Source: Sporichthya polymorpha DSM 43042 (lineage in GTDB: Bacteria; Actinomycetota; Actinomycetes; Sporichthyales; Sporichthyaceae). From it: 64,000 bases of DNA. Of the stretch, positions 2,293 to 23,978 are shown in pieces (the first letter of the stretch is position 1; the number at the start of each line of letters is the position of its first letter). The translations under genes were made by a program, and so were the position numbers. The stretch is taken from NCBI RefSeq assembly GCF_000384115.1, contig NZ_KB913029.1, positions 3,881,057 to 3,945,056 on the forward strand. The letters are read 5' to 3'. Under the pieces are notes generated by a model. It saw only the letters and a list, made by a program, of their open reading frames with translations, was not told where the DNA came from and did no database searches.

Positions 2293-3186
2293 TCAGCACT
2301 TGTCGTCGAGCTGGGGGACCGGCGGCGCGGAGACCCCGGACTTGCCGAGGGTGTCGGCGAAGGCCTGCGCCCAGCTGCCGTCGTCGAAGGCGGCCTGCAG
2401 GGCGTCGATGAGGAACTCGCACATCTGCGTGTCGCCGAACGCGAACCCGATGCCGTAGCGCTCCTGGCTGAACGGGTCGCCCACGACCTTGAGCTTGTCG
2501 GGCTGCTTGGCGACGTAACCGAGCAGGATCGCGCCGTCGGTCGTGACCGCGTCCACGCTCTTGTTGATCAGCTGCTGCACGCACTCGGTGTAGGTGGCGA
2601 ACGGTGCCGGCGCGGCGCCGTACTTCTCCTCGACGGTCTTGATCGACGTCGATCCGCTCACCGAACAGACCTTCTTGCCCGTCAGGTCGTCGGGGCCGTT
2701 GATCGAGCTGTCGTCGGAGCGGACCAGCAGCTGCTGACCCGTCTCGTAGTACGGCCCGGCCTGGCTGACGACCTTCCGGCGCTCGTCGGTGATCGAGTAC
2801 GAGGCGATGACGAGATCGACCGTGCGCGCCTTGATGAACGGCTCGCGGTTGGCCGAGACCGTCTCCTTGAACTCGATGTCGTCCTCGTCGATCCCAAGGG
2901 CCTCGGCGATGATCTTGGCGATCTCGATGTCGAAACCGGCGATCTCGCCCGTCGCGGGGTCCTTCTCGCCGACGCCCGGCTGGTCGAACTTCACGCCGAC
3001 CACGAGCTTGTCGGCGCCCTGCAGGCGGGCGAGCGTGCCGGTGACCGCGGAGGCCGACGCGCTCGCGTCGCCGCTCGGCGAGTTGCCCTGCGAGGCGCTG
3101 TCGTCGTCGTCATCGCCTCCGCAGGCCGTCAGCGACAGCGCCAGCGCGAGGGCGGCGGCGGAGGTGGTCAAGCGGCGCAATCTCAT
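2293..3186 (-). CDS. gluB: Glutamate-type ABC importer, binding lipoprotein GluB
   Basis: Extracellular solute-binding protein family 3, 297 aa. It opens with a lipoprotein signal: basic n-region, hydrophobic core, and lipobox LTAC with Cys at about residue 22, then an acidic/Ser-rich linker. The SBP_bac_3 fold follows, with typical motifs around GFDIEIAKIIAEALG and LVIASYSITDERR. A GAGAGG-type ribosome site precedes the ATG, 15 nt after the ATPase stop codon. It delivers a polar amino acid, probably glutamate, to the permeases encoded next. Confidence 0.88.
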   Translation of the reverse strand: MRLRRLTTSAAALALALSLTACGGDDDDDSASQGNSPSGDASASASAVTGTLARLQGADKLVVGVKFDQPGVGEKDPATGEIAGFDIEIAKIIAEALGIDEDDIEFKETVSANREPFIKARTVDLVIASYSITDERRKVVSQAGPYYETGQQLLVRSDDSSINGPDDLTGKKVCSVSGSTSIKTVEEKYGAAPAPFATYTECVQQLINKSVDAVTTDGAILLGYVAKQPDKLKVVGDPFSQERYGIGFAFGDTQMCEFLIDALQAAFDDGSWAQAFADTLGKSGVSAPPVPQLDDKC

Positions 3187-3201: not shown

Positions 3202-3951
3202 CTAATGGGAAAGGATCTTTCCGAGGAAGTCGCGGGCACGGTCGCTGCGCGGGTTCGCGAAGAACTCCGCCGGTGCCGCCTGCTCGACGATCTGGCCGTG
3301 GTCCATGAAGACCACGCGGTTGGCCGAGGCCTTGGCGAAGCCCATCTCGTGCGTGACCACGATCATCGTCATGCCGCTGGCGGCGAGCTCGCGCATGACG
3401 TCGAGGACCTCGGAGATCATCTCCGGGTCCAGTGCGGAGGTCGGCTCGTCGAAGAGCATGACCTTGGGGTCCATCGCCAGCGCGCGGGCGATCGCGACCC
3501 GCTGCTGCTGCCCGCCGGAGAGCTGGGCCGGCATCTTGTTCGCCTGGTCCGCGACGCCCACCCGTTCGAGCAGCGCGCGAGCCTTCGTCTCCGCCGCGGC
3601 CTTGGGCATCCGGCGGACCTGGATCGGGCCGAGCGTCACGTTGTCCAGCACGGACTTGTGCGCGAAGAGGTTGAACGACTGGAACACCATTCCGACGTCG
3701 GCACGGAGCCGGGCCAGCTCCTTGCCCTCCGCGGGGAGCGGGACGCCGTCGACCCGGATCGTGCCCGAGTCGATGGGTTCCAGCCGGTTGATCGCGCGGC
3801 ACAGCGTCGACTTGCCCGAGCCCGACGGCCCGATGACGACAACCACCTCGCCCCGCGCGACGCTGAGATCGATGTCCCGCAGGACGTGCAGGGTCCCGAA
3901 GTGCTTGTTGACCTGCAGCATCTCCACCAGGGGTGGAGCCGTGTCGATCAT
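3202..3951 (-). CDS. gluA: Glutamate-type ABC importer, ATPase GluA
   Basis: Cytoplasmic ATP-binding subunit, 249 aa, first gene of the operon. Walker A is GPSGSGKST, the ABC signature is [14 protein letters not shown], Walker B is [14 protein letters not shown], and the switch histidine lies in VVTHEMGF. This pattern is the GlnQ/GluA class of polar amino acid ATPases. The 5' flank contains the palindromic repeat at 4018-4084, so the promoter must lie in or beyond that element. Assignment to the family is firm; the substrate is inferred. Confidence 0.88.
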
Positions 3952-4017
3952 TCTCGAGAACCTAGCGAACTCAGGCCCCTCGCGCCCGTCGCCGCCCCGG
4001 CCCCGGCGCTACTTCAG

Positions 4018-4122: not shown

Positions 4123-4752
4123 TCAGCGGCGCCGGGCGGGACGGAGGGCCGGCCAGTCGAGGGTGAAGGTGCCGCCGGTGGGGAGGGCGGCCCAGCGGCG
4201 CTGAAGATCGCGGAGATCGGCGAGGGCGGTCTCGGTGGCGGCCGCGGCGGCGTCGCCGGACGGCGGGGGCAGGGAGCTGATCGCCCAGGTCGAGGTCAGG
4301 TCGCGGACCAGGTTCGGCTGCTCGCCCGCGAGGGCATTCAGGACGGTGCCGAGGACCCGCTCGGCAAGTCCCAGCTCCGCGCTGTGCTCCTTGACCAGTG
4401 CGGCGGAGCGAGCCCGGTGGTCGTGCTTGGTCCGGCCGGCGACGATCTCGACCGTCGCGAACACCGCGCCCTCGAAGACGCAGCCCCAGAACCCGTGACG
4501 GAGCCGGAACGCCCGCTCGATCAGCAGGTGCGACGCGTCGTGGGGGACCAGCCCCGTCCGGTCGTAGGAGTTGACCCGCACCCGGACCCCGTCGGGCCGG
4601 GTGAACTCGGCGACGGTTCCGGAGTCCGCCCGTCGCGTGAACTCCACCTCCACCCGAGCAGTGTTGCCGCTCCGGTCGGGCTCTGTCGCCGCAGTTTCCG
4701 CCCGCGCGCCGGAGAGTCGGGTGTGCGCCCGGTGCGCCGGCTGCGTCTTCAC
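4123..4752 (-). CDS. Hypothetical protein between two palindromic repeats
   Basis: Not recognised. Up to 209 aa, with no signal peptide or membrane helix. The first ~33 residues are polar and low in complexity, and the most upstream GTG (4752) lies inside the repeat. A better start may be the GTG at 4653, giving 176 aa beginning VEVEFTRRADSG. The middle contains GLVPHDASHLLIERAF and RLRHGFWGCVFEG, which read like a folded domain. The tail is Arg-rich. It interrupts the usual gluA-miaB neighbourhood and is bounded on both sides by copies of the same palindrome, suggesting it came as a unit. Codon use matches the surroundings. Confidence 0.6.
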   Translation of the reverse strand: MKTQPAHRAHTRLSGARAETAATEPDRSGNTARVEVEFTRRADSGTVAEFTRPDGVRVRVNSYDRTGLVPHDASHLLIERAFRLRHGFWGCVFEGAVFATVEIVAGRTKHDHRARSAALVKEHSAELGLAERVLGTVLNALAGEQPNLVRDLTSTWAISSLPPPSGDAAAAATETALADLRDLQRRWAALPTGGTFTLDWPALRPARRR

Positions 4753-17943: not shown

Positions 17944-17968
17944 TCGAGGTCCTGCACTAGGTTCCTTG

Positions 17969-17985
17969 TTGCAAGATATTCGCAA
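17969..17985 (+). promoter_or_regulatory. Nur-like operator before superoxide dismutase gene
   Basis: TTGCAA-GATAT-TCGCAA, an almost perfect match to the Streptomyces Nur box (TTGCAA-N5-TTGCAA). Nur is a nickel-dependent Fur-family repressor that shuts off the Fe-SOD gene when nickel is available. The site lies 12 nt before the ATG and overlaps the likely promoter. The match is seen directly; regulation is inferred. Confidence 0.65.
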
Positions 17986-17997
17986 TAAGGAGGGCTC

Positions 17998-18606
17998 ATG
18001 GCTGCGTACACCCTTCCCGACCTCGCTTACGACTACGGCGCACTGGAGCCGGCGATCACGGGCGAGATCCTGGAGCTGCACCACTCCAAGCACCACGCGA
18101 CCTACGTCAAGGGCGCGAACGACACGATCGACGCGATTGCCGAGCTGCGCGAGAAGGAGACCATTCCGCCGGCCGCCCTGGTCGGACTGGAGAAGACACT
18201 CGCCTTCAATCTGTCCGGCCACATCCTGCACGAGATCTTCTGGACCAACCTGACGCCCGGTGGTGGGGGCGAGCCCGACGGTGAGCTGGCGGCGGCGATC
18301 GACGACGAGTTCGGTTCGTTCGCCGCGTTTGCGAAGCAGCTGCAGACCGCCACCGTCAGCGTCCAGGGATCCGGGTGGGGCGTACTCGGTTGGGAGCCCG
18401 TGGGCCAGCGCCTCGTCGTGCAGCAGGTTTACGACCACCACGGCAACGTCGGCATCGGTTCCACGCCGCTGCTCGTGTTCGACGCGTGGGAGCACGCGTA
18501 CTACCTGCAGTACAAGAACGTTCGCCCCGACTACGGCACCAAGCTCTGGGACATCGTCAACTGGGCCACCGTCGCCGAGCGATTCTCCGCTGCGCGGAAG
18601 GGCTGA
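17998..18606 (+). CDS. sodF: Superoxide dismutase, Fe/Mn type
   Basis: Cytoplasmic Fe/Mn superoxide dismutase, 202 aa, full family length. Metal ligands can be placed in [11 protein letters not shown] (first His), [12 protein letters not shown] (second His) and [19 protein letters not shown] (Asp and last His). The VYDHHGNVG stretch puts a His where Mycobacterium and Streptomyces Fe-type enzymes have one, so iron is more likely than manganese, though this cannot be proved here. SD AAGGAGGG precedes the ATG. The Nur-like box upstream suggests it is the nickel-repressed SOD, with a NiSOD elsewhere in the genome. An 85-codon gene follows one base after the stop. Confidence 0.9.
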
Positions 18607-18607
18607 C

Positions 18608-18865
18608 GTGCCGTCACCGACCCTCGCCGAGGACGTTCAACTCGCCGCCGGGGTGATCGCCGCGCGTTCGCGCGGCGATCTCGGCGGCGCCGAGCAGCTG
18701 CTCGGGGCGTTCGACTCCGACGCAGCGCGGGCGCGGGCCTTCTGGATGCTGGCGGAGCTGGCGCTCGGGCTGGTCCGCACGCAGACCGGTCAGACCACGG
18801 ACGAACTGGTGCGCGAACTCGCCCTCATCGTGGAGGTGTCCGAGGCTCCCGGGGGGAGCCGGTAG
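18608..18865 (+). CDS. Small hypothetical protein downstream of sodF
   Basis: An 85-aa, mostly helical, acidic protein beginning MPSPTLAEDVQLAAGVIAAR. GTG 18608 starts one base after the sodF stop codon, so it is almost certainly co-transcribed. No cysteine, no membrane segment and no recognised domain. Its 3' end overlaps the convergent ABC ATPase gene by 41 bp. Conserved spacing to sodF in related genomes would support a linked role. Confidence 0.6.
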   Translation: MPSPTLAEDVQLAAGVIAARSRGDLGGAEQLLGAFDSDAARARAFWMLAELALGLVRTQTGQTTDELVRELALIVEVSEAPGGSR

Positions 18866-20366
18866 CGCCGGAGAGCCTGGGATCGACCGGCCCCGGCGCC
18901 CCGCAGAGCTTCCCCTCCCGCATCCGCAGTACCCGGTCGGCGTAGGAGCGCAGCCGCGGTTCGTCATGGCTGACGACGAGCACGCCCACGCCACGGTCGG
19001 CCGCAGAACGCAGGAACGCGGCGACCGTCGCGGCGGCCTCGACGTCCAGGCTCGCGGTCGGTTCGTCGGCGACCACGAGGGCGGGGTCGGCGATCAGCGC
19101 GCGGACGACGGCGACCCGCTGGCACTGGCCGACCGACAGCGAACCCGGGAGGCGGTCGACGTCCAGCCCGTCGAGCCCCACGGCGACGAGCTCCGCCCGG
19201 GCTCGGTCCCGTCGCTGGGCGCGGGTGAGCCGGGCGCCGCGCAGCACGAGGGGTTCCGTGACGCTGCGCCAGATCGACCAGCGCGCATCGAGACTGCTAA
19301 CCGGGTTCTGGAAGACCGGCATGGCGTAGCCGGGCCGGGGCGTCTGCGGTGCGCGCGATCGGCCCCAGACGGGGGTGTCGCCGAGGAGCACCGTTCCCGC
19401 GTCGGGTCGCTCCATCCCGGCAACGATGCGCAGCAGGGTCGACTTGCCGGACCCGGAAGCTCCGACGATGCCCACCACCTCGCCCGCCCGGACCCGCAGG
19501 CAGACGCCGTCGACGGCGGTCGTCGTCGCGGGCCCGACGCGGTAGCTCCGACGCGCCTGGTGGACGCGCGCCACCGCCGGGGCGTCGGGCCGTTCGGACA
19601 GCGGTGACAGCGGCCGTGGGGCCGCGGCGCGGACGAGCGCCCGCGTGACGTCGTGGGCCGGCGACCGCAGCACCGTGTGGGAGAGGTTCTCCTCCACGAT
19701 CTGACCGTCACTCAGGACGACGATGTGGTCGGTGTGCCGCGCCACCAGGGCGAGGTCGTGGCTCACGACGAGCAGGGCCGAAGAGGTTCGCTCCAGCAAC
19801 TCGAGCGCGTCGTCGGCGAGGTCGGCGTCGAGCGCGCTGGTCGGTTCGTCGGCGAGGGTGAGCAGCGGCCGGTGCGCCGTGGCGGCGACCGTGGTGGCCC
19901 GCTGGAGCATCCCGCCCGACCACTGGTGCGGGCGCTGACCGGCGCGGACCTCGGGCGCGGGGATGCCGACCCGTGCCAGCGCGTCCACGATCGCCCCGGG
20001 CGGTGGCCGCCGCCCGTGAGCGGTCCACGCCTCGCCGACGTGGTGGCGCACCGAGCGCAGCGGGTCGCACGCGGCGAACGGGTCCTGGGCGACGTAGCCG
20101 ATCACGGGTCCGAGCAGGGCGCGTCGTTCCCGTGCGGAGAGGGCGAGGACGTCCCGGCCGCCGACCAGGATGCGGCCGGTGACCTCCGCGGACGGGGGCA
20201 GCAGACCGAGGACGGCCCGAAGCAACGTCGTCTTGCCGCAGCCGGAGGCGCCCACGACGCCGATCCGGGCCCCGGCCGGGACGGTGAGTTCGACGCCGTC
20301 CAGTGCGAGATGGCCGTTGGCATAACGGACCGTCAGTTTCTCGACCTGCAGAGCCGGGGGCGTCAT
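18825..20366 (-). CDS. Opp/Nik-type ABC importer, fused double ATPase
   Basis: A 513-aa protein with two complete ATP-binding domains in tandem, equivalent to DppD-DppF or NikD-NikE fused. Domain 1: Walker A GASGCGKTT, signature WSGGMLQRATT, Walker [13 protein letters not shown]. Domain 2 (from about residue 265): GASGSGKST, signature SLSVGQCQRVAV, LVVADEPTASLD. The first signature matches peptide/nickel importers; in the second, Val replaces the first Gly of LSGGQ. Last gene of the riboswitch-controlled operon, overlapping the preceding permease by 4 nt. Predicted to power cobalt/nickel or peptide uptake. Confidence 0.87.
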   Translation of the reverse strand: MTPPALQVEKLTVRYANGHLALDGVELTVPAGARIGVVGASGCGKTTLLRAVLGLLPPSAEVTGRILVGGRDVLALSARERRALLGPVIGYVAQDPFAACDPLRSVRHHVGEAWTAHGRRPPPGAIVDALARVGIPAPEVRAGQRPHQWSGGMLQRATTVAATAHRPLLTLADEPTSALDADLADDALELLERTSSALLVVSHDLALVARHTDHIVVLSDGQIVEENLSHTVLRSPAHDVTRALVRAAAPRPLSPLSERPDAPAVARVHQARRSYRVGPATTTAVDGVCLRVRAGEVVGIVGASGSGKSTLLRIVAGMERPDAGTVLLGDTPVWGRSRAPQTPRPGYAMPVFQNPVSSLDARWSIWRSVTEPLVLRGARLTRAQRRDRARAELVAVGLDGLDVDRLPGSLSVGQCQRVAVVRALIADPALVVADEPTASLDVEAAATVAAFLRSAADRGVGVLVVSHDEPRLRSYADRVLRMREGKLCGAPGPVDPRLSGATGSPREPRTPPR

Positions 20367-21178
20367 GTCCGGTTCCCGGGGTCGACGACGTCCCGGAGGG
20401 CGTCCGCAATGAGCGTCGCCGCGAGGACGGTGAGGACGAGCCCGATGCCCGGGCCGAGGATCTGCCAGTGCGCGGCCGTGAGAGTCTCCCGGCTCTCGGC
20501 GAGCATGTTGCCCCATTCCGCGGTCGGGGGCTGGGCGCCGAGGCCGAGGAAGGACAGCGCCGCGAGTTCCATGACGGTGTGGCCGATCCGCAGGGTGGCC
20601 GCGACGGCGACCAGCGCCGCGGTGCCGGGCAGGACGTGACCGAGCGCGATCCGCGTCCGGGTCGCCCCCGCCATCCGGGCGGCGAGGACGTCCGGGCGTG
20701 CGCGGGCGCCCCCGGCGTAGGCACGGGCGAGCTTCGCCAGGCCGGCCCAACCGGTGACCGACATGGCCAGCACCAGGTTGAGGAAGCCCGGCCCGAGAAC
20801 GCCGACGATCGCGAGGGTGAGGACGGTACCGGGGAGGCCGAGCAGCACGTCGGTGACGCGGGTGAGCACCGCGTCCACGGCGCGGCCCCCGGTGGCGGCC
20901 AGGATCCCGACGACCAGACCGATCGCGGTGGCGATGACCGTGACCAGCAGCGCGGCCCCGAGGGAGGTCTGCGCCCCGGCGACGGTGCGGGCGAGCAGGT
21001 CCCGTCCCGCCCGGTCGGTGCCGAGCCAGTGCTCCCAGCTCGGGCCGGCGAGTTGGTTGCGGTAGTCCGGGGCATCGGGGTCGCGCGTGAGGAAGGGCCC
21101 GAGCAGCGCGAGCAACGTCAGCAACCCGGCGAGCACGAGCCCCACCCGGGCGCCGCGGTGCCCGAACAGCGCGCTCAC
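20363..21178 (-). CDS. Opp/Nik-type ABC importer, permease C
   Basis: A 271-aa permease of the DppC/NikC type. An N-terminal helix precedes the conserved LAGPSWEHWLGTDRAGRDLL segment found in this subfamily. The BPD_transp_1 domain has an EAA-like loop around ARPDVLAARMAGATRTRIA and the conserved ELAALSFLGLGAQPPTAEWG. GTG 21178 overlaps the preceding permease stop (GTGA). Pairs with the upstream permease in the membrane. Confidence 0.88.
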   Translation of the reverse strand: MSALFGHRGARVGLVLAGLLTLLALLGPFLTRDPDAPDYRNQLAGPSWEHWLGTDRAGRDLLARTVAGAQTSLGAALLVTVIATAIGLVVGILAATGGRAVDAVLTRVTDVLLGLPGTVLTLAIVGVLGPGFLNLVLAMSVTGWAGLAKLARAYAGGARARPDVLAARMAGATRTRIALGHVLPGTAALVAVAATLRIGHTVMELAALSFLGLGAQPPTAEWGNMLAESRETLTAAHWQILGPGIGLVLTVLAATLIADALRDVVDPGNRT

Positions 21179-22113
21179 GTCGCCTCCTGCCGGAGCCGGG
21201 GATCGAGCCAGAGGTTGAACAGGTCGACGAGCAGGCTCGTGAGGACGAACAACCCGATCGCCAGCAGGGCGAACCCGGTGACCACCGGCATGTCCCGCGC
21301 CTCGACCGCCTGCACGGTGTAGCGCCCGATGCCGGGCCAGGTGAAGACGCTCTCCACCACCGGGGCGCCGGCCAGGAGGAAGGCGCTCTCCATCCCGATC
21401 AACGTGAGGTAGGCCGGCAGGGCGTTGGGGAGCTGGTGCACGAACAGCCGGCGCGCCGGGCCGGCGCCGCGCGCCTGCGCCACCCGCAGGTACGGCGCCG
21501 ACCCGGCTTCGAGCAGACCCGCCCGCAGGATGCGTGACCACGCCGCGATCGACCCGAGGGCGAGCGTCAGCGCCGGCAGTCCCACCGTGCCCCAGGTCCC
21601 GTCTGCGATCACGCGACCGAAGCCGAGCTCGACGACCAGCACGTCGAGCAGCAGGATGCCGAACACGAAGCTCGGGACCACCAGGCACACCAGGGTCACC
21701 GAACGGGACGCGAGATCCGGGAGTCGGCCTGGCCAGGCCGCGGCCAGCAGGCCGAGGGCGAGACTCCCGAGGACGGCGAGAGCGAGCGCACTGACGGTGA
21801 GGATCGCCGTCGCCTCCACAAGGCCGGCGAACTCGTCGGTCACCGGCCGACCCGTCTGCCAGGACGTGCCGAGGTCGCCGGTCAGCAGGCCGTGCAGGAA
21901 GTCCCGGAGCCGGACGAAGAACGGGTCGTCGAGCCCGAGTTCCGCGCGCATCGCTGCGACTGCCTCGGGCGCCACGTCCTGCTGTCCCCGGGCGGTCAGG
22001 ATCCGCAGCGCCGGATCGCCTGGGGCCGCCTGGAGCAGGGCGAAGACGATCAGCGCGCCGCCCAGGAGGGTGAGGGCGGCCTGCCCGAGCCGGTGGAGCA
22101 CGGTGCGGACCAC
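21175..22113 (-). CDS. Opp/Nik-type ABC importer, permease B
   Basis: A 312-aa permease of the DppB/NikB type, starting MVRTVLHRLGQAALTLLGGA as usual for this family. It contains the large periplasmic loop with PGDPALRIL and the conserved EAA-type segment (GLLEAGSAPYLRVAQARG). The C-terminal PGIGRYTVQAVEARDMPVV is a family hallmark. It is the second gene after the lipoprotein gene (12 nt gap) and overlaps the next permease by 4 nt. Confidence 0.88.
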   Translation of the reverse strand: MVRTVLHRLGQAALTLLGGALIVFALLQAAPGDPALRILTARGQQDVAPEAVAAMRAELGLDDPFFVRLRDFLHGLLTGDLGTSWQTGRPVTDEFAGLVEATAILTVSALALAVLGSLALGLLAAAWPGRLPDLASRSVTLVCLVVPSFVFGILLLDVLVVELGFGRVIADGTWGTVGLPALTLALGSIAAWSRILRAGLLEAGSAPYLRVAQARGAGPARRLFVHQLPNALPAYLTLIGMESAFLLAGAPVVESVFTWPGIGRYTVQAVEARDMPVVTGFALLAIGLFVLTSLLVDLFNLWLDPRLRQEAT

Positions 22114-22125
22114 GACGGTCCCGGG

Positions 22126-23736
22126 TCAGGGGGCGGTCCGGGCCGTCACCCAGAGGTTCGCGACGGGCAGCGGGTAGTTCCGCCACTTCGCGTTCGTGAC
22201 CACCATGCCCTTGCGGCGGACAGACGCGGCCCACAGGCCCTCGTCGGCGATGATCTGCTGCGCCCGGCGGAGCAGCTCGGTCCGTTTCGTGGCGTCGAAC
22301 TCGCGGCCGAGTTCGGAGATCACCGCGTCGAGCGCGGGACTGTCGACCTTCGAGTAATTCTCGGGGGAGTCGCTGTGCAGCGACTGGCGGAGTCCGTCCA
22401 CCGGGCTGAGGGTGAACGAGAGAATCGAGTCGCCGACGATGGCGACGTCCCAGTCCGAGCCCTTCCGGGCTTCGGTGATGTCCGGGACCTGCGAGACCTT
22501 GACCTCGAACCCGAGGTCCTTGAGCTGCGCCTGCAGGGCGACGCCGATCGTGTTGCTGTCCGGTTGCTGAGGGTACGTCAGGACGTCGAGTGTCAGCTTC
22601 TGGCCGTTTTTGGTGCGGGGGCCGGTGCCCTCGGCGGTCCAGCCGGCCTCGTCGAGCAGACGTTTCGCCTTGTCCAGGTCGGTGGCCTGCAGGTCGAGGA
22701 CGTAGTCGGCGTCCGCGGTCATGCTGCTCGTCGCGACCTCGGCGAGACCGTTCAGGACGTCCTCGGCGAGCGCGCGGTAGTCGATCGCCGACAGGAGGGC
22801 CTGCCGTACTCTCGGGTCGTCGTACGGGGCGCGTGCATTGTTGATCTGCAGCGCGAAGGTCGTGCCGTTCGGCGGCCCGGTGACGAAGTAGGCATCGCTG
22901 CGGCCCTGCAGATTCCGCTGCATCGTCGTCGGCATGTACAGCGCGATGTCGGCCTCCCCGGCCTGCACCGCCTGCACCCGCGCCGTCGCCTCGGGGACGA
23001 ACTTGATCGTGAGGTGCGACAGGCCCGGTGTCCCGTCCCAGTACCCGGGCATCGGCTCGAGCTCGGCGCGTTCCGAGGTCAGCGTCTTCATGACGTACGG
23101 ACCGGTGTAGAGGCCGGCGCTCAGCAGGTCCTCCACGGGCTCGTCGGCCTCGCGGTGCTGCTCGTAGGCGTCGACGTCGAACACGGGCACGTTCGCCTCG
23201 TCGGCCAGGATGTTCGCCATCCCGGGCACCGGTTGGGTCGTCGTCACCGTCACCTCGAGCGGCCCGGTGACCTCGGCGTCGTCGAGGTTCACCGCGGCGG
23301 CGAAGCCTTCGTTCTCCTCGGCGCAGAACTCGATCAGGTCGACGACCGACTCGGCGTCGAGGGCACGGCCGTTCTCGAAGGTGATCCCCTCACGGAGCGC
23401 CAGCTTCCACGTGGTCTCGTCGACGGCGCTCAGGCTCTGTAGCACCCAGGGCGACGGGACACCGTTCGGCTCCGGGCGCATCAGCAGCTCGACGTAGCCG
23501 AACTCCGGCCCCCAGAACGCGTTCTCCAGCGGGTCGAGGTTGTCGATGCGGAAGCTGGTCGCGATCGTCAGCGGCCCGGGGCCGGCAGCCGTACTCGGGC
23601 TGGGACCACTGCGGGCGACGAGGCCGTCGTCGTCCTCGGCCGCGCAGGCGGTGAGGCTGAGCGCCACAGCAGCGACGGCCACGAGGGCGCGAGCGCGGGG
23701 AAAAGAACGATGCCGAAATCGGCGGACGGCAACCAT
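22126..23736 (-). CDS. Opp/Nik-type ABC importer, binding lipoprotein
   Basis: Solute-binding protein family 5 (SBP_bac_5), 536 aa. Lipoprotein signal with lipobox LTAC (Cys about residue 31), acidic/Ser linker, then the two-lobed fold with family landmarks (TWKLALREGITFENGRALDA, DPRVRQALLSAIDYRALAED). First gene of the operon; its ATG lies 45 nt after the P1 helix of a cobalamin riboswitch, with GGAG 8 nt upstream. Cobalamin control suggests a cobalt, or nickel/cobalt, chelate importer of the NikABCDE type rather than a peptide importer. The ligand is inferred from regulation only. Confidence 0.87.
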   Translation of the reverse strand: MVAVRRFRHRSFPRARALVAVAAVALSLTACAAEDDDGLVARSGPSPSTAAGPGPLTIATSFRIDNLDPLENAFWGPEFGYVELLMRPEPNGVPSPWVLQSLSAVDETTWKLALREGITFENGRALDAESVVDLIEFCAEENEGFAAAVNLDDAEVTGPLEVTVTTTQPVPGMANILADEANVPVFDVDAYEQHREADEPVEDLLSAGLYTGPYVMKTLTSERAELEPMPGYWDGTPGLSHLTIKFVPEATARVQAVQAGEADIALYMPTTMQRNLQGRSDAYFVTGPPNGTTFALQINNARAPYDDPRVRQALLSAIDYRALAEDVLNGLAEVATSSMTADADYVLDLQATDLDKAKRLLDEAGWTAEGTGPRTKNGQKLTLDVLTYPQQPDSNTIGVALQAQLKDLGFEVKVSQVPDITEARKGSDWDVAIVGDSILSFTLSPVDGLRQSLHSDSPENYSKVDSPALDAVISELGREFDATKRTELLRRAQQIIADEGLWAASVRRKGMVVTNAKWRNYPLPVANLWVTARTAP

Positions 23737-23781
23737 GCCGGGATCTCCATCCTGGGGTTTCCTCGCCCCTCGGATACGGAT

Positions 23782-23931
23782 CCGCGACAGGTCAGTCTCC
23801 TGACTCCCGGATCGACGCTCACCCCGGCCTTCCCGTCCCGGGTGGGACCGTGGCCGTGCGTGGGGTTCGCTCCCCGGTCACAGTGGCGGGACCGTGCCGG
23901 ATTCGCACCGGCTTCCTGGTTCCCGTCGCGG
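23782..23931 (-). promoter_or_regulatory. Cobalamin riboswitch
   Basis: All main parts of the AdoCbl riboswitch are present on the minus strand. P1 is CCGCGAC (complement of 23925-23931) with GTCGCGG (complement of 23782-23788). The core GGTGCGAATCCGGCAC and the B12 box CCGCCACTG (complement of 23881-23889) follow, then AGTCAGGAGACTGACC (complement of 23790-23805). About 45 nt separate P1 from the ATG. There is no U-tract, so control is probably at translation: GGAG sits in a small GGAT/ATCC hairpin just before the start codon. Confidence 0.93.
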
Positions 23932-23978
23932 AAGTGACAGCGCTCAGCCAACCAGACGCGCTGCGGTTCCCGGAATGA

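Follow-up and report, generated by a model that had tools for sequence, protein, structure and literature searches.

A candidate Nur operator in front of sodF in Sporichthya polymorpha, with a metal ABC importer as a probable second target

The nickel-controlled superoxide dismutase (SOD) switch of Streptomyces coelicolor, composed of Nur, sodF and sodN, was reportedly described by Ahn (2006), An (2009) and Kim (2013/14). Does the same switch exist in Sporichthya, a member of a distant actinobacterial family? The question is raised by a palindrome that lies immediately in front of sodF in a 64-kb stretch of the S. polymorpha genome (the window), which is itself part of a single contig of 5.5 Mb.

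The sodF gene (17998-18606, + strand) encodes an Fe/Mn superoxide dismutase of 202 aa, with domains PF00081 and PF02777 and with 8bhx and 1ids as solved relatives. Reading of the window, a genome scan and a matrix search together place a Nur-type operator core, TTGCAA-N5-TCGCAA with the spacer GATAT (TTGCAAGATATTCGCAA), at 17969-17985 (+ strand). The core ends twelve bases (17986-17997) short of the ATG at 17998, confirming the distance given in the initial annotation, and the single-base departure from the Streptomyces Nur consensus that was claimed there matches the consensus tTGCaa-N5-ttGCAA quoted in the available text of PMC3919588, the changed base falling at a lower-case (weak) position. 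The extended operator, TTGTTGCAA-N5-TCGCAATAA (17966-17988, no strand assigned), is palindromic at seven of nine arm pairs, and the sister species (G003) keeps the core with one spacer base changed. A matrix scan of promoters had also been proposed. Our operator matrix was trained on sodF promoters of other species, using 37 distinct sites (about 22 effective), and scores the sodF site at 35.4, against 10.9 for the runner-up anywhere in the window. With at most one mismatch, TTGCAA-N5-TTGCAA occurs at only two sites in the 5.5-Mb genome, where a zero-order estimate predicts 0.86 by chance (3e-5 per given 200 bp): one is the sodF site, and the other, 35 nt upstream of an ORF for an AfsR-like regulator (L014), scores 6.0 on the matrix and was taken as chance. 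The palindrome before sodF is very probably a landing site for Nur.

This operator overlaps the putative sodF promoter, the elements of which are read from sequence and comparison. A candidate -10 element, TAGGTT (17958-17963, + strand; TAGGGT in G003), would set the transcript start at about 17970, within the operator, and the leader would then bear the Shine-Dalgarno-like AAGGAGG (17987-17993, + strand) found 4 nt before the ATG. Comparison with promoters of relatives suggests an alternative -10, TAAGGA (17986-17991, + strand), which abuts the operator and would give a leaderless message, as Actinomadura promoters suggest; in many relatives the 3' arm of the box directly joins a -10-like TAGTGT or TAGTGG in the same place as TAAGGA here. 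On either reading, a repressor bound at the operator would cover the sodF promoter. A scan for sigma-70 consensus promoters and terminators found neither.

The initial annotation had proposed a search of the genome for nur and for the sodN gene that it predicted. Both genes are present, which favours its reading of the site. There are three Fur-family genes, one Zur-like (L001), one nur (L002) and one FurA/PerR-like (L003). The nur gene (L002, 1471-1911) encodes a protein of 146 aa for which 3eyy ranks first among 24 solved Fur-family sequences (E 6e-59, 201.5 bits), the next solved relative reaching only 78.7 bits; 3EYY is S. coelicolor Nur according to the available text of a review (PMC7055735). 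A close orthologue (94% identity) is found in the sister species. At the seven positions that we take to hold the metal-ligand histidines of Nur (33, 86, 88 and 90; 70, 72 and 126), six histidines are kept in the alignment to 3eyy; position 86 is Ser, and is likewise variable among the Nurs of other genomes with the box. The sodN gene is recognised by PF09055 (E 5e-43) and TIGR02753 (153 bits, cut-off 90), and is adjoined by a divergent ORF resembling a NiSOD maturation protease (sod_Ni_protease, 47.9 bits, under the cut-off of 63.25). At the same locus (L004), sodN (1489-1899, - strand) overlaps the start of a gene for an RsbW-like anti-sigma factor (1055-1492, - strand), after which comes a SigB/F-type sigma gene (224-1054, - strand), and NiSOD apparently shares an operon with this stress sigma module.

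If the palindrome is a Nur operator, its presence before sodF may be expected to follow Nur and sodN in other genomes. Our comparison set comprised 80 sodF relatives from a scan of genome contigs, in 76 genomes, four second copies from the same record series being excluded. A box with at most two mismatches from the published consensus lies within 200 bp before sodF at 39 of 80 loci, compared with 2 of 2000 stretches drawn at random from these loci outside the sodF upstream region and 0 of 203 stretches before their other ORFs. The distance from box to start codon varies among relatives from 10 to 119 nt. All 38 genomes with at most two mismatches carry sodN, as do 10 of 11 with three mismatches (the exception is a Janibacter MAG in which the match is poorly palindromic) and 6 of 27 with four or more (Fisher p 5e-12, though the counts are not independent of phylogeny, and relatedness among the genomes weakens such p-values). 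Nur was searched for in 50 of the 76 genomes, where a clear gap separates orthologues (at least 51% identity) from paralogues (at most 41%). An orthologue is present in 23/23 genomes with the box versus 8/27 others, and in 29/29 genomes with sodN versus 2/21 without it, although several genomes are MAGs, so that some absences may be gaps. Six of 27 genomes without the box carry both sodN and Nur, so that having the two genes need not entail a box before each sodF. The distribution of the box takes 15 changes to explain on a tree built from 82 SodF sequences. Four independent, well-supported pairs differ in sodN, and on average the box differs the same way in 3.2 of them, the opposite way in 0 and not at all in 0.8; with only four such contrasts a sign test cannot reach significance. 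By eye, Allonocardiopsis has box and sodN where Nocardiopsis has neither, and within Saccharopolyspora, species with both contrast with S. rectivirgula and NFXS83, which lack both; an exception to the pattern is S. indica, which has sodN and no box.

Further copies of the operator point in the same direction. In its own genome the extended 23-mer pattern TTGTTGCRANNNNNTYGCAAYAA occurs without mismatch at two places, before sodF and before a metal ABC operon, and allowing up to three mismatches adds only one place, at three mismatches. The reversed control pattern has 0 occurrences there, and 1, 2, 1 and 4 (forward) in G003 and three other family members, G004, G001 and G002. In G003, TTGTTGCRANNNNNTYGCAAYAA is found exactly at the same two places, the operator of the ABC operon having identical arms with changed spacer and flanks, and a weaker version (matrix 14.6) precedes the ABC operon in G004. 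In G004, G001 and G002 sodF was not detected. G001 and G002 carry sodN, and in both the operator precedes NicO-family permeases that score over the NCBIfam NicT cut-off (L157, L151), which ties the operator to nickel in genomes lacking a detectable sodF. In Actinophytocola oryzae (L031) a matrix match lies before a NicT gene adjoining sodF. Taken together, these sites show an operator that tracks nickel genes. One site counts against the Nur reading: in G001 a Nur-like box (22.6; L160, 1501-1523) lies just before the gene for a histidine-rich cation diffusion facilitator, and a cation-efflux gene is an odd target for a repressor of nickel uptake.

From this combination of site, genes and distribution we infer, with high confidence, that the palindrome is an operator at which Nur would bind, respond to nickel and repress sodF. 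Three other explanations must be weighed against this. With three Fur-family genes in the genome, and with the second full operator preceding a substrate-binding protein (SBP) of Zn/Mn type, the site might instead be used by the Zur-like or the FurA/PerR-like protein, so that sodF would answer to zinc, iron or peroxide. We consider this unlikely: a Znu-type SBP gene in G001 bears a different operator, TTGAAAATGGTTTTCAA (TTGTTGAAAATGGTTTTCAACAA), presumably of Zur type; the TTGC operator precedes nickel permeases in G001, G002 and A. oryzae; and the box co-occurs with a close Nur orthologue and is absent where only Fur paralogues of at most 41% identity occur. The Zur-like TTGTTGAAAATGGTTTTCAACAA scores 24.0 on our matrix, so the matrix alone separates the two classes uncleanly, while the GC core does separate them.

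A nickel response could also be conferred by a regulator of another family, since sodF of S. griseus is described as governed by the nickel-responsive ArsR-type SrnR/SrnQ (available text of the review PMC7055735); that such a regulator, not Nur, governs sodF here is very unlikely, given the match of the box to the Nur consensus and a distribution that tracks Nur. As regards chance, the core TTGC-N9-GCAA is only mildly unusual if judged by the window alone, occurring once against 0.14 expected from shuffles and at least once in 14 of 100 shuffled windows, and it is found at 16 places genome-wide (5.5 Mb). A chance palindrome with no function is nevertheless scarcely credible for a site that is kept in G003, whose counterparts are enriched before sodF in other genera, and whose matrix score is 35.4 against 10.9.

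What, then, of the second exact operator? It lies at 4303281-4303303, some 28 nt upstream of an operon encoding an SBP, an ATPase and a permease (L162, 6332-9006), in which PF01297 (215 bits for the SBP) and PF00950 are both over cut-off. As in AztABC and MntABC importers, the SBP belongs to PF01297, with AztC (178 bits) and MntC (153 bits) as the best-fitting models, though in neither case over the cut-off; neither the SBP nor the permease reaches an NCBIfam equivalog cut-off. The closest solved chains are 5kzj and 5w56, with MntC also among the solved relatives, and at what we take to be the third metal-ligand position the SBP has His, as in 5kzj, where MntC has Glu. ZnuA-fold ABC importers are a class known for Zn, Mn and Fe. 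Unlike AztABC and MntABC importers, the operon has a Nur-type and not a Zur-type operator ahead of it, and from the operator sequence we predict that, in Sporichthya, this AztABC/MntABC-like metal ABC importer is probably a new target of Nur as well. We lean, with some reserve, towards a scheme in which Nur commands both sodF and a ZnuA-fold (cluster A-I) importer placed where relatives have NicT, such that either the importer carries nickel or nickel starvation is linked through Nur to uptake of the metal that the replacement SOD requires. Searches of open-access papers, among them the available part of PMC4531530, turned up no ZnuA-fold ABC importer described as Nur-controlled.

This arrangement does not extend to a general rule that Nur boxes precede ZnuA-fold SBPs, since a strong box was found at only 1 of 29 SBP loci of other genomes (L122-L150), and the best matrix matches at several others look like Zur sites. 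The single strong case (L146, Allonocardiopsis, 28.1) has its box before an unnamed ORF upstream of genes for an MntA-like SBP and an MntR-like protein. This ORF (2538-3182, - strand) encodes a protein of 214 aa without a Pfam or NCBIfam match, upstream of the mntABC/mntR-like cluster. It offers no more than a suggestive parallel for a Nur-type box close to an operon of this kind.

The known elements allow a mechanism to be proposed. With enough nickel, Ni-Nur would occupy the palindrome, over the start region or between the -35 and -10 of sodF, and RNA polymerase would be blocked at the sodF promoter, while NiSOD, the sodN product, would serve. When nickel is short, Nur would leave the operator and nickel-free SodF would be made. 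The second full operator copy would bring the AztABC/MntABC-like importer under Nur control in this genus. This scheme resembles the S. coelicolor switch in its operator consensus, its Nur orthologue and its Fe/Mn-SOD gene under the operator, and in having sodN elsewhere in the genome with a maturation-protease-like neighbour. Nur controls the nickel import operon nikABCDE in S. coelicolor, and the operator before NicT permeases in G001 and G002 is in keeping with this; in Sporichthya, unlike in the nikABCDE case, the import gene under the operator belongs to a ZnuA-fold ABC system (SBP, ATPase and ABC-3 permease).

A second difference concerns sodN. The induction of sodN by Nur in S. coelicolor is indirect and runs via s-SodF, an RNA cut from the sodF 3'UTR that pairs with 18 nt of the sodN leader, and in 10 Streptomyces the sodF 3'UTR is complementary over 16-19 nt to the 5' end and the ribosome site of sodN (available text of PMC3919588). 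A comparison of the sodF 3' end with the sodN leader found no s-SodF counterpart. The longest perfect complement is 12 nt (median 8 and maximum 10 in 60 shuffles), with a duplex energy no better than that of shuffles. It lies upstream of a putative sodN -10, TAGTGT (TAGTCT in G004), that is conserved in all five family genomes, and would thus be outside the sodN mRNA; it also falls in the ORF beside sodN, and both copies merely encode R-K-G, so that we rejected it as an s-SodF-type RNA. The sodN-inducing sRNA arm of Streptomyces therefore appears to be absent here, and the expectation of the same switch as in Streptomyces is supported for its repression half, with operator, nur and sodN in place, but not for the half that induces sodN. 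It follows that any nickel response of sodN here would take a different route, and the simplest guess is that sodN is expressed constitutively.

The 3' flank of sodF likewise differs from S. coelicolor, in that no sodF 3'UTR is present: an ORF of 85 aa with no known family (18608-18865, + strand) starts one base after the sodF stop. G003 has it at 96% identity, and relatives (60-64% over 61-73 aa) also lie 3' of sodF in three Micromonosporaceae, namely Micromonospora (L025, L035) and Actinoplanes (L039). Convergent with sodF is a nik-like ABC operon (18825-23736, - strand), for which NikA/B/C/D/E-type models are all under cut-off. Ahead of this operon lies a cobalamin riboswitch (RF00174, 96.3 bits; 23773-23971, - strand), which is also found in G003. 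This too is unlike S. coelicolor. Nur control of this operon was considered and rejected, as there is no matrix match and a cobalamin riboswitch is there instead; the operon probably encodes an importer of cobalt or nickel that is controlled by B12. In Actinoplanes sp. TFC3 (L039), sodF is again next to a transporter gene with a B12 riboswitch: a cobalamin riboswitch (4174-4356) precedes the gene for an F420-0/BtuF-like ABC binding protein, and a strong Nur-type box (3938-3960, 31.1) is located between this riboswitch and sodF.

That Nur represses sodF and nickel import is already known, and the probable novelty lies in the ABC importer as a target. The operator matrix recovered nickel permeases outside its training set. 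Our results would extend the nickel-controlled SOD switch from Streptomyces to a distant actinobacterial family, apparently as the repressor arm alone, and the naming of a metal ABC importer as a probable Nur target provides a directly testable prediction.
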